64,000 bases of DNA, taken from assembly GCF_002277955.1 (NCBI RefSeq), contig NZ_CP018477.1, forward strand, positions 2,625,206 to 2,689,205. The letters run 5' to 3'. Positions 28,636-39,407 of this stretch are shown piece by piece. Within the stretch, counting starts at the first letter, position 1, and every line of letters starts with the position of its first letter. This DNA comes from Thermogutta terrifontis (GTDB lineage: Bacteria; Planctomycetota; Planctomycetia; Pirellulales; Thermoguttaceae). The position numbers and the translations under genes are program-made. The notes beneath the pieces are model-generated. The model did not search any database. It was given only the letters and a program-made list of their open reading frames with translations, and was not told the DNA's origin.

Positions 28636-29889
28636 TTAATGTTGCCGGACCGCCCTGCTGGACCGTTGAGCCAGCGGTATCTCGGTTTCTTCCTCAAATA
28701 CGATCAGGCAGTCCAAAAGGGCGCGCAGCGCAATAAGCAAGAGAACCGCCAAGAAGGGCATTAAGAACCCGGCCCAATCATGAAACACGCGTTGTCCCCA
28801 CTCCCGACCGGCATAAACATACAAAAGGCCTGTGAGCGTGATTCTCACGATATTGACAACCAGCGCGATGGGCACGGCACTGAGAAGCAGTACAGGAACC
28901 TGCCATCGCGGAATCTCTGCGACAAGCAGATAAAGCACCACCAAAGCCACAAACACCGTGGCCATGCGAAGCCCGCTACATTGTTCCACAACTCCCAACT
29001 GAAGGTCCCCCAGCTTGATGAAATGGGCTCCCTCGCTGATGGCTTCGAGCCCCATCGTTTGGAGAAGATAGGTGCCGGCCGTTGCCGCCAAGCCTTGAAG
29101 AGGTACCAGGAGGGCTCGTTCCACGCTGAACGGTAACGGGAACGAGAACACGAGGAGGAGGGCCGCGGGCCAACACCACTTCACAGCGCGAGTCCCCATC
29201 ACCGCCAGCACGGCCCCGAGACAACTGAGAGCAAACGTAGCCATGGCCGGCACGTCGAGCCCAAAATACGTGAACGCCAATCGGAGACCTGTCGCTGTCA
29301 CGAGAAGCAACAACCCCGGCCAGGCCTCGCTGATTTCGAGAGCGGGAAAATCCTTAGGTGACGCTGAAGTTGCCTCCCGGAGTGAGACAGTCAGGACCGC
29401 GGAAGGACGTTGGTCCCCGCTCGCCGGGAACGTCTGCGGCGTGGCGGATGCTGCTGCCACTTGCAGCCAGGTTTTTGCAGCAAAAACCACGGCCAGGATA
29501 AGCCCCAAGCTGTAAAAAACCGCAGCCAGGAACATCAGGCCCGAGCTGAAAATCCCGCGCGCCAGGTCACTGGGCGGGGCCGTTTCACCCAGCACTTTGC
29601 CGCCCAGATACGTCACTCCCCCGATCACGACAAAGCTTCCGGCAACGATGATGCGTCCCAACTCACCACGTGTCCTAGGTCTCCAGTCTGCCTTCCCGCC
29701 CAATCGCCGCAGCCAGAGTAGAGCAGCGGCAGCGAGTGGCATGAACACCCCATGCGAGTACTGCTCGCCACGCCAGGAAATCGCAGCCTCGGATAATGCG
29801 TTCCAGTAGGCCCAGGTCACTACAGCCAGGAGAATTCCAAGCAACCACGGTCGCCAGCTTTCGATCGTTTTTGATGCTGCTTCCACCAT
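28636..29889 (-). CDS. Exosortase
   Basis: 417 aa from ATG 29889 (TTG 29910 possible). Integral membrane transpeptidase with about nine hydrophobic segments. The three catalytic signatures are visible in order: Cys in 'VVEQCSGLRM', Arg in 'NIVRITLTG' and His in 'FHDWAGF'. Exosortases cleave C-terminal PEP-CTERM-like sorting signals in bacteria that make exopolysaccharide. A long central loop (~105-185) of low conservation separates the first helices from the core, and no EpsI domain is fused. No protein in this window ends in a recognisable PEP-CTERM tail. Confidence 0.9.
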   Translation of the reverse strand: MVEAASKTIESWRPWLLGILLAVVTWAYWNALSEAAISWRGEQYSHGVFMPLAAAALLWLRRLGGKADWRPRTRGELGRIIVAGSFVVIGGVTYLGGKVLGETAPPSDLARGIFSSGLMFLAAVFYSLGLILAVVFAAKTWLQVAAASATPQTFPASGDQRPSAVLTVSLREATSASPKDFPALEISEAWPGLLLLVTATGLRLAFTYFGLDVPAMATFALSCLGAVLAVMGTRAVKWCWPAALLLVFSFPLPFSVERALLVPLQGLAATAGTYLLQTMGLEAISEGAHFIKLGDLQLGVVEQCSGLRMATVFVALVVLYLLVAEIPRWQVPVLLLSAVPIALVVNIVRITLTGLLYVYAGREWGQRVFHDWAGFLMPFLAVLLLIALRALLDCLIVFEEETEIPLAQRSSRAVRQH

Positions 29890-30164
29890 GGGATGATCCC
29901 GCGCCCCCAATTGCGTAAGGGCAATTATTCACGATCCTCGACCGATTCTTTTCGTCTTTCGCCGCGATGCTTAACTTATCACGGTAGTTGGCAGGGTCTC
30001 CGCTAGCAAGCAGCGCAGGGAGAAACCCCGAAGAGTAACAACCAGGAAAGCGACGCGAACTTGCTTTTCCAACAAAACACGTCTGATCGGCATCCGACTT
30101 TCATTCAAGCCCCTCTGCTCCAATCGCGGGGTCGCACATCAATTAGCCCGGACGAACCCTCTCG

Positions 30165-34913: not shown

Positions 34914-34935
34914 TCACATCTATCGAGGAAGGAAC

Positions 34936-35958
34936 ATGTTCTCGGCGTTTAGCCTGCACGGTTTGGATCGTAACCGGCAAAAGCAAAGGAAAGTTTGTTT
35001 TCTCTATGGCGAAACTGCCACGACGACCACGGAATACGCGGTTTTCCTGCTCATTCTGACTGTTTCCGCGATGGCAGGATTTGTAACCGTTTCTGGAATT
35101 ACGCACTTTGTTTTTCAGCAGGCATATACTGCGATGTTGCCGGTCAGTGCAGAGAACAACCTGCCATCCTCGCAGTCGCTCATCGACCGTGCGCTGGGTT
35201 CACTCGTGCAGAACGGTTCTCATGGGGTCACGCGCCTTGACTTTTTCGTAACGGTTCTCGGTGGGCTATTGGGGTTGTTCTTCGCGGTGATCCTCGTGAT
35301 GAGCTTCATGAAGCCACGCCACCGGAAAACGCAAGAGCATCCTCAACAGAAACATCTGGCAGTTCAGCAGCTTCGAGAGATCCACCGGCGTGTCCTCTAT
35401 GCTAAAAGAAATCTCCTTCGCAGAGTGCTCGGCCGATCTCTTGACGAGCGCCGCGTCATTGACCTGCCCGTGAAATACTTTATGTCCGAACAGGTGGAAG
35501 CCGTTGCCCCCGACACACCGCTGGAACGCGTTCGGCACATCATGCGTCAGAAAGGCATCCGACACCTGATTGTGGCCGACGAGAGCAACCAGCCTCTGGG
35601 GATCATCAGTTCCCATGACCTCTGCTGCCGTAGTGGCTCCACAGCGCGAGACGCGATGACTTCCGAGCCCCACACTGTTGGTCCCGGACTCCCCATCAGC
35701 CAAGCCATTACACTGCTGCTCCAACACGGGATTTCCTGCCTTCCCGTGGTTCAAAACGGTAAACTTGCGGGGATCCTAACCACCACCGACATCCTTATCG
35801 GTTTTCAGGCGCTCATTCAGGCCTGGGAACTTGTTCACCAACCGCCGGCGGATATTGAGGAGCCTGAGGCCACAGAGTGCGACGGCAACTCGGCGTTGAC
35901 GATTTCGCATGAAGATAAAAGCCCCCGCGACGCATCGTCAGCACAATGCGTCTGTTAG
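34936..35958 (+). CDS. Membrane CBS-pair protein with Flp-prepilin-like N-terminus
   Basis: 340 aa. Near residue 26 is 'ETATTTTEYAVFLLILTV': relative to the Ala before TTTT, Glu is +5 and Tyr +6 and a hydrophobic helix follows, the arrangement of Flp/TadE-type prepilins cut by a TadV-type peptidase (usually after Gly, sometimes Ala). A second membrane helix lies at ~95-115 ('FVTVLGGLLGLFFAVILVM'). The cytoplasmic part has two CBS motifs: 'MSEQVEAVAPDTPLERVRH' and 'MTSEPHTVGPGLPISQAI', each ending in a 'P(L/V)-GI(I/L)' strand. CBS pairs usually sense adenine nucleotides. AGGAAGG lies 3 bases before ATG. The combination is unusual; whether it is processed is not known. Confidence 0.75.
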   Translation: MFSAFSLHGLDRNRQKQRKVCFLYGETATTTTEYAVFLLILTVSAMAGFVTVSGITHFVFQQAYTAMLPVSAENNLPSSQSLIDRALGSLVQNGSHGVTRLDFFVTVLGGLLGLFFAVILVMSFMKPRHRKTQEHPQQKHLAVQQLREIHRRVLYAKRNLLRRVLGRSLDERRVIDLPVKYFMSEQVEAVAPDTPLERVRHIMRQKGIRHLIVADESNQPLGIISSHDLCCRSGSTARDAMTSEPHTVGPGLPISQAITLLLQHGISCLPVVQNGKLAGILTTTDILIGFQALIQAWELVHQPPADIEEPEATECDGNSALTISHEDKSPRDASSAQCVC

Positions 35959-38099: not shown

Positions 38100-38411
38100 G
38101 TTAACGGCGCTCCTTTCGTGCCTCATTTTTCACGGTCGCGTAAATTGGACGCGTTCCTTCCAGATTAGTCACTACTACTAGATGCTAAAGGTAAGGATTC
38201 GGATTGGCTAGCCGCACCAGTCATTCCGGAGGTTCGTGATCTATTGCGCCACCCCTTACCCGAGCCAAATTAGTTTACAGGCTTCCAAGTCCGCATTGTT
38301 CAGCCCGTAAAAAACAAATATGATGAAGTTTGATCCCCATGTGTGCGGGACCGAACCGGCTCCCCAGGAGTACCGTCTTCCCCTCCAGACGACATTTGTT
38401 TCTCCCGATCT

Positions 38412-39407
38412 ATGAACCCTGAAGCCCGGACACCGGCTGCCACTGATTCCAAGTCTCCGGCAACTTCCCCAGGTGGTGAAACTCTTCGTTTGACCGAGAA
38501 CGTGAAACTACTCCTGGAGCATGCTGCGGCGGTGGCCAAGGCGGCTGAAGCGGCAGCCATTCTCATTTTGTGGCCGGGAAAGGCAGACTGGTCCCGCGTG
38601 ACAGGGCTGCTGGGGGATCAAAAACTGATTGTGGCGGTGGACACGCCTGCCCAGGCGGAGCCTCTGCATAATTCGAAAGTCCACGTCGTGATCACCAACA
38701 TGCCGGAGTCATCGCCCCAGGACCGCCTGGCGGAGGCCCTTGTGGAGTGCGTGACGGAGGAGTACGTGGCCATGGGCAACGATCTGGTTGCCGTTTATGG
38801 GGCCTTCGATGCGACGTCGCTGGACACCCTCAGTCTGTTTCACCTGTCAGATTACTTGGGAAGACTGACCGTTCGCGAGTTACGCCAGCTCAAAACAGAC
38901 ATTCCCGTCGAAACCCTCAAGCTGGTCATCAATCTGGCGATCGAGATCGGTCGCGAAGGCCGGGAAGGAAAACCAGTCGGCACAATCTTCGTCATTGGTG
39001 ATACCCGCCGCGTTCTCGCCCATACTCGGCCTCTGGGCTTTGACCCTGTTCGAGGATACAGCAAACGCGAGCGAAACCTATTTGATGCCAAGGTTCGCGA
39101 GGGGATCAAGGAAATCGCCCAGCTCGACGGGGCGTTCATTATCAGCAAAGACGGATATGTTGTGGCTGCGTGCCGTCACATTGACTGCTCGGCTGATGGG
39201 ATTTCCCTCAGCAAAGGACTGGGTTCGCGACACTGGGCCGCGGCGGCCATTACCCGCCGGACAAAAGCCGTGGCGGTTTGCGTCAGCCAATCCAGCGGTA
39301 CGGTGCGCGTATTCCACGATGGCGAGGTGCGCATGCGAATCGAGCCGGAGCGCAAACGAGTTGTGGTCTGGCGGGATACCGACGGCAATCCGGAAACCGC
39401 GCGGTAG
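38412..39407 (+). CDS. Diadenylate cyclase (DisA_N/DAC domain) protein
   Basis: 331 aa from ATG 38412. The N-terminal ~115 residues form an alpha/beta domain resembling the pyruvate-kinase C-terminal fold ('AAILILWPGKADWSRV', 'KVHVVITNMPE'). The C-terminal DAC domain has 'GTIFVIGDTRRVL', 'LDGAFIISKDGYV' (the DGA motif) and 'LGSRHWAAAAITRRT', which aligns with the RHR motif, with Trp in place of the second Arg. DAC enzymes make cyclic di-AMP from two ATP. There are no membrane helices and no DisA DNA-binding domain, so it is soluble and not a typical DisA or CdaA. Single gene, divergent from ribE. Confidence 0.85.
   Translation: MNPEARTPAATDSKSPATSPGGETLRLTENVKLLLEHAAAVAKAAEAAAILILWPGKADWSRVTGLLGDQKLIVAVDTPAQAEPLHNSKVHVVITNMPESSPQDRLAEALVECVTEEYVAMGNDLVAVYGAFDATSLDTLSLFHLSDYLGRLTVRELRQLKTDIPVETLKLVINLAIEIGREGREGKPVGTIFVIGDTRRVLAHTRPLGFDPVRGYSKRERNLFDAKVREGIKEIAQLDGAFIISKDGYVVAACRHIDCSADGISLSKGLGSRHWAAAAITRRTKAVAVCVSQSSGTVRVFHDGEVRMRIEPERKRVVVWRDTDGNPETAR

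Follow-up and report, generated by a model that had tools for sequence, protein, structure and literature searches.

An Flp prepilin-like domain combined with a second predicted membrane helix and a CBS pair in Thermogutta terrifontis and its relatives

Flp/Fap pilins of type IVb (IVc; PF04964) are proteins of 50–80 aa with a single helix, are encoded in the tad locus and carry a prepilin site of the form G/xxxxEY (a slash marks the cleavage position here and below). The TadE/TadF pseudopilins likewise have a prepilin site with Glu at +5, and their C-terminus lies outside the cytoplasm. Their site is given as GxxxxEF in the part of the literature available to us. According to the available part of PMC3244431, prepilin peptidases cleave after Gly or Ala, whereas the available part of PMC4471445 calls Gly at the cleavage site absolutely critical and quotes a leader range of 6–26 residues. 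In the modular pilins treated in PMC10191384 (available in part), the pilin N-terminus carries a foreign domain, and the grafted domains are adhesive and located on the filament. The prepilin-type proteins named in the available parts of our sources, including PMC4471445 and PMC10191384, have additional domains that are extracellular. CBS-pair sensors, among them AcuB, CBSX2, MgtE and OpuCA, share the CBS fold with [ST]xxD in both repeats.

In this study, we analysed a window of 64,000 nucleotides (positions 2,625,206–2,689,205) of the T. terrifontis genome, a single contig of 4,810,751 bp. The window contains a real gene, here called the Flp-CBS gene (Table 1), in which an initial annotation had pointed out the segment A/TTTTEY followed by a hydrophobic helix, a second helix and a two-CBS domain. 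All of these are found in the ORF, in its hydrophobic segments (residues 35–53 and 103–121) and in its Pfam matches, the site being numbered A28/T29-T30-T31-T32-E33-Y34. A start codon downstream of the motif had been considered as an objection; however, the Shine-Dalgarno-like sequence GAGGAAGGA precedes the ATG of the ORF, and the start codon is therefore placed upstream of the TEY motif.

With Flp/Fap pilins, the Flp-CBS family shares the leader, Gly or Ala at −1, Glu at +5, mostly Tyr at +6, the hydrophobic helix and a G...TF pattern after the helix. The window protein, whose site reads A/TTTTEY, differs from them in its length (340 aa), its two helices and its CBS pair, and the family differs in lying outside the tad locus and below the Pfam cut-off. 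TadE/TadF, with the GxxxxEF site of our partial source, differ from it by Phe where the family has mostly Tyr at +6. The grafted domains of modular pilins are on the filament in the available part of PMC10191384, whereas the CBS pair is predicted to lie inside the cell. Compared with AcuB, CBSX2, MgtE and OpuCA, the family has a prepilin-type anchor, and no attached enzyme or transporter was seen. Judged from profiles and alignments, the family members consist of an Flp domain followed by a further membrane helix and a CBS pair, an architecture undescribed in the sources searched: no combination of an Flp pilin with a CBS domain was found in the open literature by title and start of abstract (subscription papers were mostly outside this search), in line with the remark in the initial annotation that the arrangement was unfamiliar. 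In the open literature on Tad/Flp pili or on the neighbouring winged-helix AAA ATPase in Planctomycetes, nothing on this architecture was found by title either.

Table 1. Features in and around the Flp-CBS gene (positions in the window)
Feature	Position	Strand	Details and basis
Flp-CBS protein gene	34936..35958	+	ORF, 340 aa, ATG start
Shine-Dalgarno-like GAGGAAGGA	34925..34933	+	sequence; last base 2 bases before ATG
Putative leader, residues 1-28, Ala28 at -1 as last residue	34936..35019	+	alignment; cleavage predicted
Flp-like domain, residues 29-70, Glu33 (+5, bases 35032-35034), Tyr34 (+6)	35020..35145	+	profiles and model
Second membrane helix, residues 99-131 in model, hydrophobic core 103-121	35230..35328	+	
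Linker helix, residues 136-170, Lys157-Arg158 invariant in alignments	35341..35445	+	alignments and model
CBS pair, residues 176-287	35461..35796	+	Pfam, alignment, model
Winged-helix AAA ATPase, 484 aa	33459..34913	+	genus-level neighbour, not a fixed partner
DacZ-like diadenylate cyclase	38343..39407	+	DacZ_P 126 bits, DAC 76.6 bits
Exosortase-family protein	28636..29910	-	148 bits

Of 99 related genomes searched, 64 contained matches, which in many cases covered the CBS part only. Thirty loci were fetched and read, and genomes outside these loci have best matches with E above 1e-9. In 16 of the 30 loci, including that of the window, the layout is complete and the motif is present; a helix without the motif occurs in L019 and L020, L017 lacks the first helix, and by eye the remainder encode CBS proteins that are soluble or GGDEF-like. 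The membrane CBS gene is present in 18 of the 99 relatives, two of which (G070 and G078) have it without the motif. A GTDB scan using CBS-only peptide patterns kept 80 loci; among the 17 read, seven belong to the Flp-CBS family, and all seven carry the motif, including two new members (L086 and L089). A class-wide profile search of 297 genomes, in which L172–L180 were read, yielded a motif-bearing homologue from another order (L172), one without the motif (L174) and a genus whose four matching genomes lack the first helix and keep the CBS pair. In 245 sampled genomes of the phylum, the matches at E 1e-25 from classes other than Planctomycetia cover the CBS part only.

In a tree of the CBS part, eight soluble relatives are set apart from the membrane family with support of 100/99. 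The motif needs four changes on this tree. L019 represents a well-supported loss, forming a fully supported pair with the motif-bearing L012; the genus lacking the first helix forms a single clade, and L020 and L174 are placed on weak deep forks. A single gain of the motif with losses is likely. Two related CBS proteins (L008 and L030) end, by eye, in a GGDEF-like part. The frame of L008 contains no membrane helix, and the tree places this protein within the membrane family; L030 is partial and not included in the tree.

Among the 33 homologues examined that have the first helix in frame, 30 keep the prepilin-type signal. Position −1 of these 30 motif-bearing rows is occupied by Gly (26) or Ala (4) and position +6 by Tyr (21) or Phe (1) in 22 rows together, whereas the presence of Glu at +5 in all 30 is by construction, and 11 of the 30 rows were retrieved with a profile that had itself been made from rows with the motif. 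When the CBS-driven searches are taken alone, the motif is found in 19 of 22 homologues with the first helix (19 with, 3 without). Homologues with the helix and without the TEY motif, which the initial annotation would have taken as a sign of chance, do exist, namely the three among the 33 (L019, L020 and L174). In an alignment of 20 homologues (19 picked as motif-bearing, plus L019; L020 and L174, which have no motif and could not be anchored, were left out), the three columns of lowest entropy within −9 to +34 are +5 (E in 19 of 20), +6 (Y in 18 of 20) and −1 (G in 15, A in 4). Besides Met1, Glu33 is the sole invariant residue before residue 157 in an alignment of 16 members chosen as motif-bearing.

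The window copy is atypical, with Ala at −1, no Pfam Flp match and a leader of 28 residues, which exceeds the range of 6–26 quoted in the available part of PMC4471445. Since it has Ala at −1 and the sources, as far as available, disagree on the need for Gly (PMC3244431, PMC4471445), its putative cleavage is the least certain. At one locus (L179, genome G150), which was excluded from the motif counts, an Flp-like stretch with the motif lies in another reading frame just upstream of the CBS part; this frame break may be real or due to the assembly.

The similarity to Flp pilins extends beyond the motif. An hhalign comparison of 19 N-termini with 21 Flp pilins aligned 53 columns with a score of 59.7 (probability 98.3, E 2.4e-14), whereas the best of 100 column shuffles reached 22.3; the 19 N-termini, like the 16 alignment rows, were all picked as motif-bearing. 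With the leader and motif removed (from residue +7 on), the score was 31.1 versus at most 12.7 in shuffles, and the second helix (TM2) of the same 19 proteins, which served as a natural control, scored 11.8 against Flp. A profile of the N-terminal 146 positions, containing no CBS columns, matches the T. terrifontis Flp at E 1.4e-10. In 396 genomes of the order, this profile found true Flp pilins, 17 known genes and 11 new members, and all 11 new members carry the CBS pair (eight by Pfam and three by eye). We also looked for the same N-terminus fused to other C-terminal domains and found none among the 28 long-frame loci (L231–L258), which consist of 17 already known CBS protein genes and the 11 new ones; the second match of G614 and L260 lay outside this survey, and L259 is an ordinary Flp. 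The apparent Flp in a 333-aa frame of G086 was judged by eye to be a normal Flp preceded by a spurious frame.

Flp_Fap is the second commonest Pfam family after CBS, matching 4 of the 16 members (best E 1.9e-4) and, in a second scan, 2 of 10 (L086, E 4.8e-4; L255, E 1.8e-3). A genome search with the Pfam Flp_Fap model matched two homologues (E 1.4e-4 and 3.0e-4). None of the homologue scores seen reached the PF04964 gathering score of 32.2 (L011, 25.0 bits), and the window protein alone gave no Flp_Fap match in the Pfam scan at E 1; the case for Flp therefore rests on the family and not on the window protein. For the family, the profile comparisons, shuffles and TM2 control indicate that the likeness to Flp is homology, so that the Flp-prepilin-like N-terminus suspected initially is real and conserved. 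The layout had been described as that of Flp/TadE; the Flp half is supported, and TadE is not among the 21 Pfam families matching the 16 members in the Pfam scan.

The two CBS domains of the window protein score 96.7 bits against a Pfam cut-off of 24. G222/S225/D228 and G279/T282/D285 are invariant in the 16 aligned members, and [ST]xxD, which we take to be the usual ribose contact, is kept in both repeats in all 16. An AlphaFold2 model built from eight sequences (mean pLDDT 69.7, poor at residues 1–31 and 68–98) contains helices at 27–67 and 99–131 and the linker at 136–170, with block means of at least 90 over residues 181–290 of the CBS pair. The Foldseek neighbours of the CBS part include AcuB with AMP/ADP and CBSX2 with AMP, among others, and on this modelling a CBS fold is present. 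Lys/Arg residues are more numerous after TM2 than before it in 15 of 16 members, and the CBS pair is for this reason predicted to lie inside the cell. Around TM1, Lys/Arg counts are higher before the helix in nine of 16 members, equal in three (0 and 0 in the window protein) and lower before it in four.

The initial annotation had advised a search for a TadV-type peptidase, and an A24 peptidase of this type (198 aa) was found adjoining the gene for the 71-aa Flp of T. terrifontis, whose genome has five A24 peptidase matches in total. TadE-, CpaB-, CpaC- and TadZ-like genes, named by eye, are present in the same stretch as Flp. This Flp/TadV locus is 1.6 Mb away from the Flp-CBS gene of the window, and the Flp-CBS gene lies outside the tad locus, by eye, in all 20 contexts for which genes were called (one of them, L043, cut by the contig end; L045, L047 and L048 are members without the motif). 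A weak co-occurrence of Flp with the membrane CBS protein was observed: an Flp_Fap match is present in 17 of the 18 genomes with the membrane CBS protein versus 59 of the 81 others (Fisher p 0.064, kinship ignored), at a loose threshold (E 0.05) that 76 of the 99 relatives pass, compared with 63 of 99 at the Pfam cut-off. G087 has no Pfam Flp match; the N-terminal profile matches it three times, once in the Flp-CBS gene itself.

The gene ending 22 bases upstream of the Flp-CBS gene encodes, as initially annotated, a winged-helix AAA ATPase: it has a Walker A motif (GAPGNGKT, from residue 222), a DD Walker B motif and a winged-helix region, which the TrmB model matches in 8 of 15 members of the ATPase family (best 2.1e-4). 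The two genes had been proposed to form a two-gene module. The short gap on the same strand, the same gene order in G003 of the same genus (gap of 164 bases) and the tendency of the ATPase family to track Flp among genomes speak for a dedicated module. However, the ATPase adjoins the CBS gene in 2 of the 20 contexts, those of the window and G003, and the ATPase family is present in 75 of the 99 relatives versus 18 for the membrane CBS gene. The module is thus not general, and we consider a dedicated pairing quite improbable. Within the same genus, G002 has another gene beside the ATPase and no homologue better than E 2.4e-4, and the contig of G001 ends inside the ATPase gene.

The distribution of the ATPase family itself was unexpected. 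An Flp_Fap match (E 0.05) is present in all 75 relatives with the ATPase and absent from 23 of the 24 without it. In a sample of 99 genomes from the phylum, the full-length ATPase is present in seven, all of which have Flp over the Pfam cut-off (Flp in 9 of 99 at this cut-off and in 36 of 99 at E 0.05), and in none of the 90 genomes without strong Flp; a partial ATPase match (E 3.5e-4, residues 197–242) in G388, which has no Flp match, was dropped. These counts ignore kinship, and clades without both genes may simply be reduced. Possibly, this family is an unrecognised Tad-associated ATPase, a candidacy drawn from its genomic distribution. No member was seen within a tad locus, and a link with the Tad locus of G083 was discarded because 13 kb of genes, unrelated by eye, lie between them. 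At five loci (L070, L072, L073, L074 and L075), a second ATPase paralogue (~50–55% identical) is found close to an FHA protein and to a large protein resembling Ser/Thr kinases; at four of the five, a response-regulator protein containing GGDEF- and CBS-like parts is nearby as well (all named by eye).

The best reading, which we hold tentatively and at somewhat less than an even chance, is that the Flp-CBS protein senses nucleotides at the Tad machine while anchored by its Flp domain. For this scheme, we infer topology, cleavage, ligand, partner and direction of control as follows. The leader would be inside the cell, the Flp helix would run outward through the membrane, and after a short periplasmic loop the second helix would return inward, with the helical linker and the CBS pair located in the cytoplasm. 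The leader would be removed by a TadV-type peptidase, and the cleaved Flp helix would pack with Flp pilins or with the TadB/TadC platform in the inner membrane, where the second helix and the CBS domain would retain the protein. Nucleotide bound to the CBS pair could then alter the linker and tune Tad pilus assembly. This suggests, without proving it, that bacteria with Flp-CBS proteins couple pilus building to their energy state; if so, pilus assembly would receive a direct metabolic input through a pilin helix and an intracellular nucleotide sensor, and Glu33, Ala28 and the CBS [ST]xxD sites would offer a simple genetic handle.

The sensor reading has to be weighed against others. Chance resemblance to a prepilin signal could be argued from the three homologues with a helix and no motif and from the missing Pfam Flp match of the window protein; however, the 19 rows that keep the motif are spread over the tree with long branches, and the profile similarity survives removal of the motif and is absent for TM2. 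Column conservation, the profile comparisons and the two controls led us to reject chance, to which we give hardly any probability. Alternatively, the Flp domain may have been borrowed as a membrane anchor only, perhaps cleaved, with the CBS pair regulating a membrane or cytoplasmic process unrelated to pili. The gene mostly stands alone among unconserved neighbours, its presence in the relatives is patchy, and some lineages lack the motif or the first helix while the CBS part persists, so that this borrowing is a serious contender, with the same somewhat less than even chance as the sensor reading. The same three homologues without the motif and the genus without the first helix, together with the mixed charges around TM1, the Ala at −1 and long leader of the window copy and the location outside the tad locus, were counted against the sensor reading. 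On the other hand, Glu5 is the best conserved residue of the first helix, and a plain anchor needs no near-invariant Glu in a membrane helix. As far as PMC4471445 is available to us, processing does not require Glu5, whereas the formation of homopolymeric pili does, and in the available part of PMC10191384 Glu5 is presumed to pair with the N-terminus of the overlying subunit. Conservation of a residue dispensable for processing favours, without proving it, packing with pilins or the platform over a plain anchor (PMC4471445, available part); this argument is weakened by the statement in the same partial source that Glu5 mutants can enter filaments alongside wild-type pilins.

The protein may instead be a basal anchor or brake pilin: a subunit with Glu5 kept and a second helix holding it in the membrane could dock under the last pilin and halt or hold the filament, at a time set by the nucleotide bound to its CBS pair. 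We regard this as unlikely; if true, no earlier case of a pilin-like subunit with a sensor inside the cell is known to us.

A DacZ-like gene lies 2.4 kb downstream of the Flp-CBS gene, and c-di-AMP was considered as an obvious ligand of the CBS pair. This was not supported by the distribution of DAC, since DAC is present in 93 of the 99 relatives and, in G003, is located on a different contig from the CBS gene; in G071 and G074, the Flp-CBS gene is present and no DAC gene was seen. The DacZ-like gene can thus count as no more than a general supplier of a possible ligand for the CBS pair. The window also contains an exosortase-family gene, and a divergent response-regulator gene adjoins the Flp-CBS gene in two other loci (L036 and L037) and is one 468-aa gene away from it in L086.
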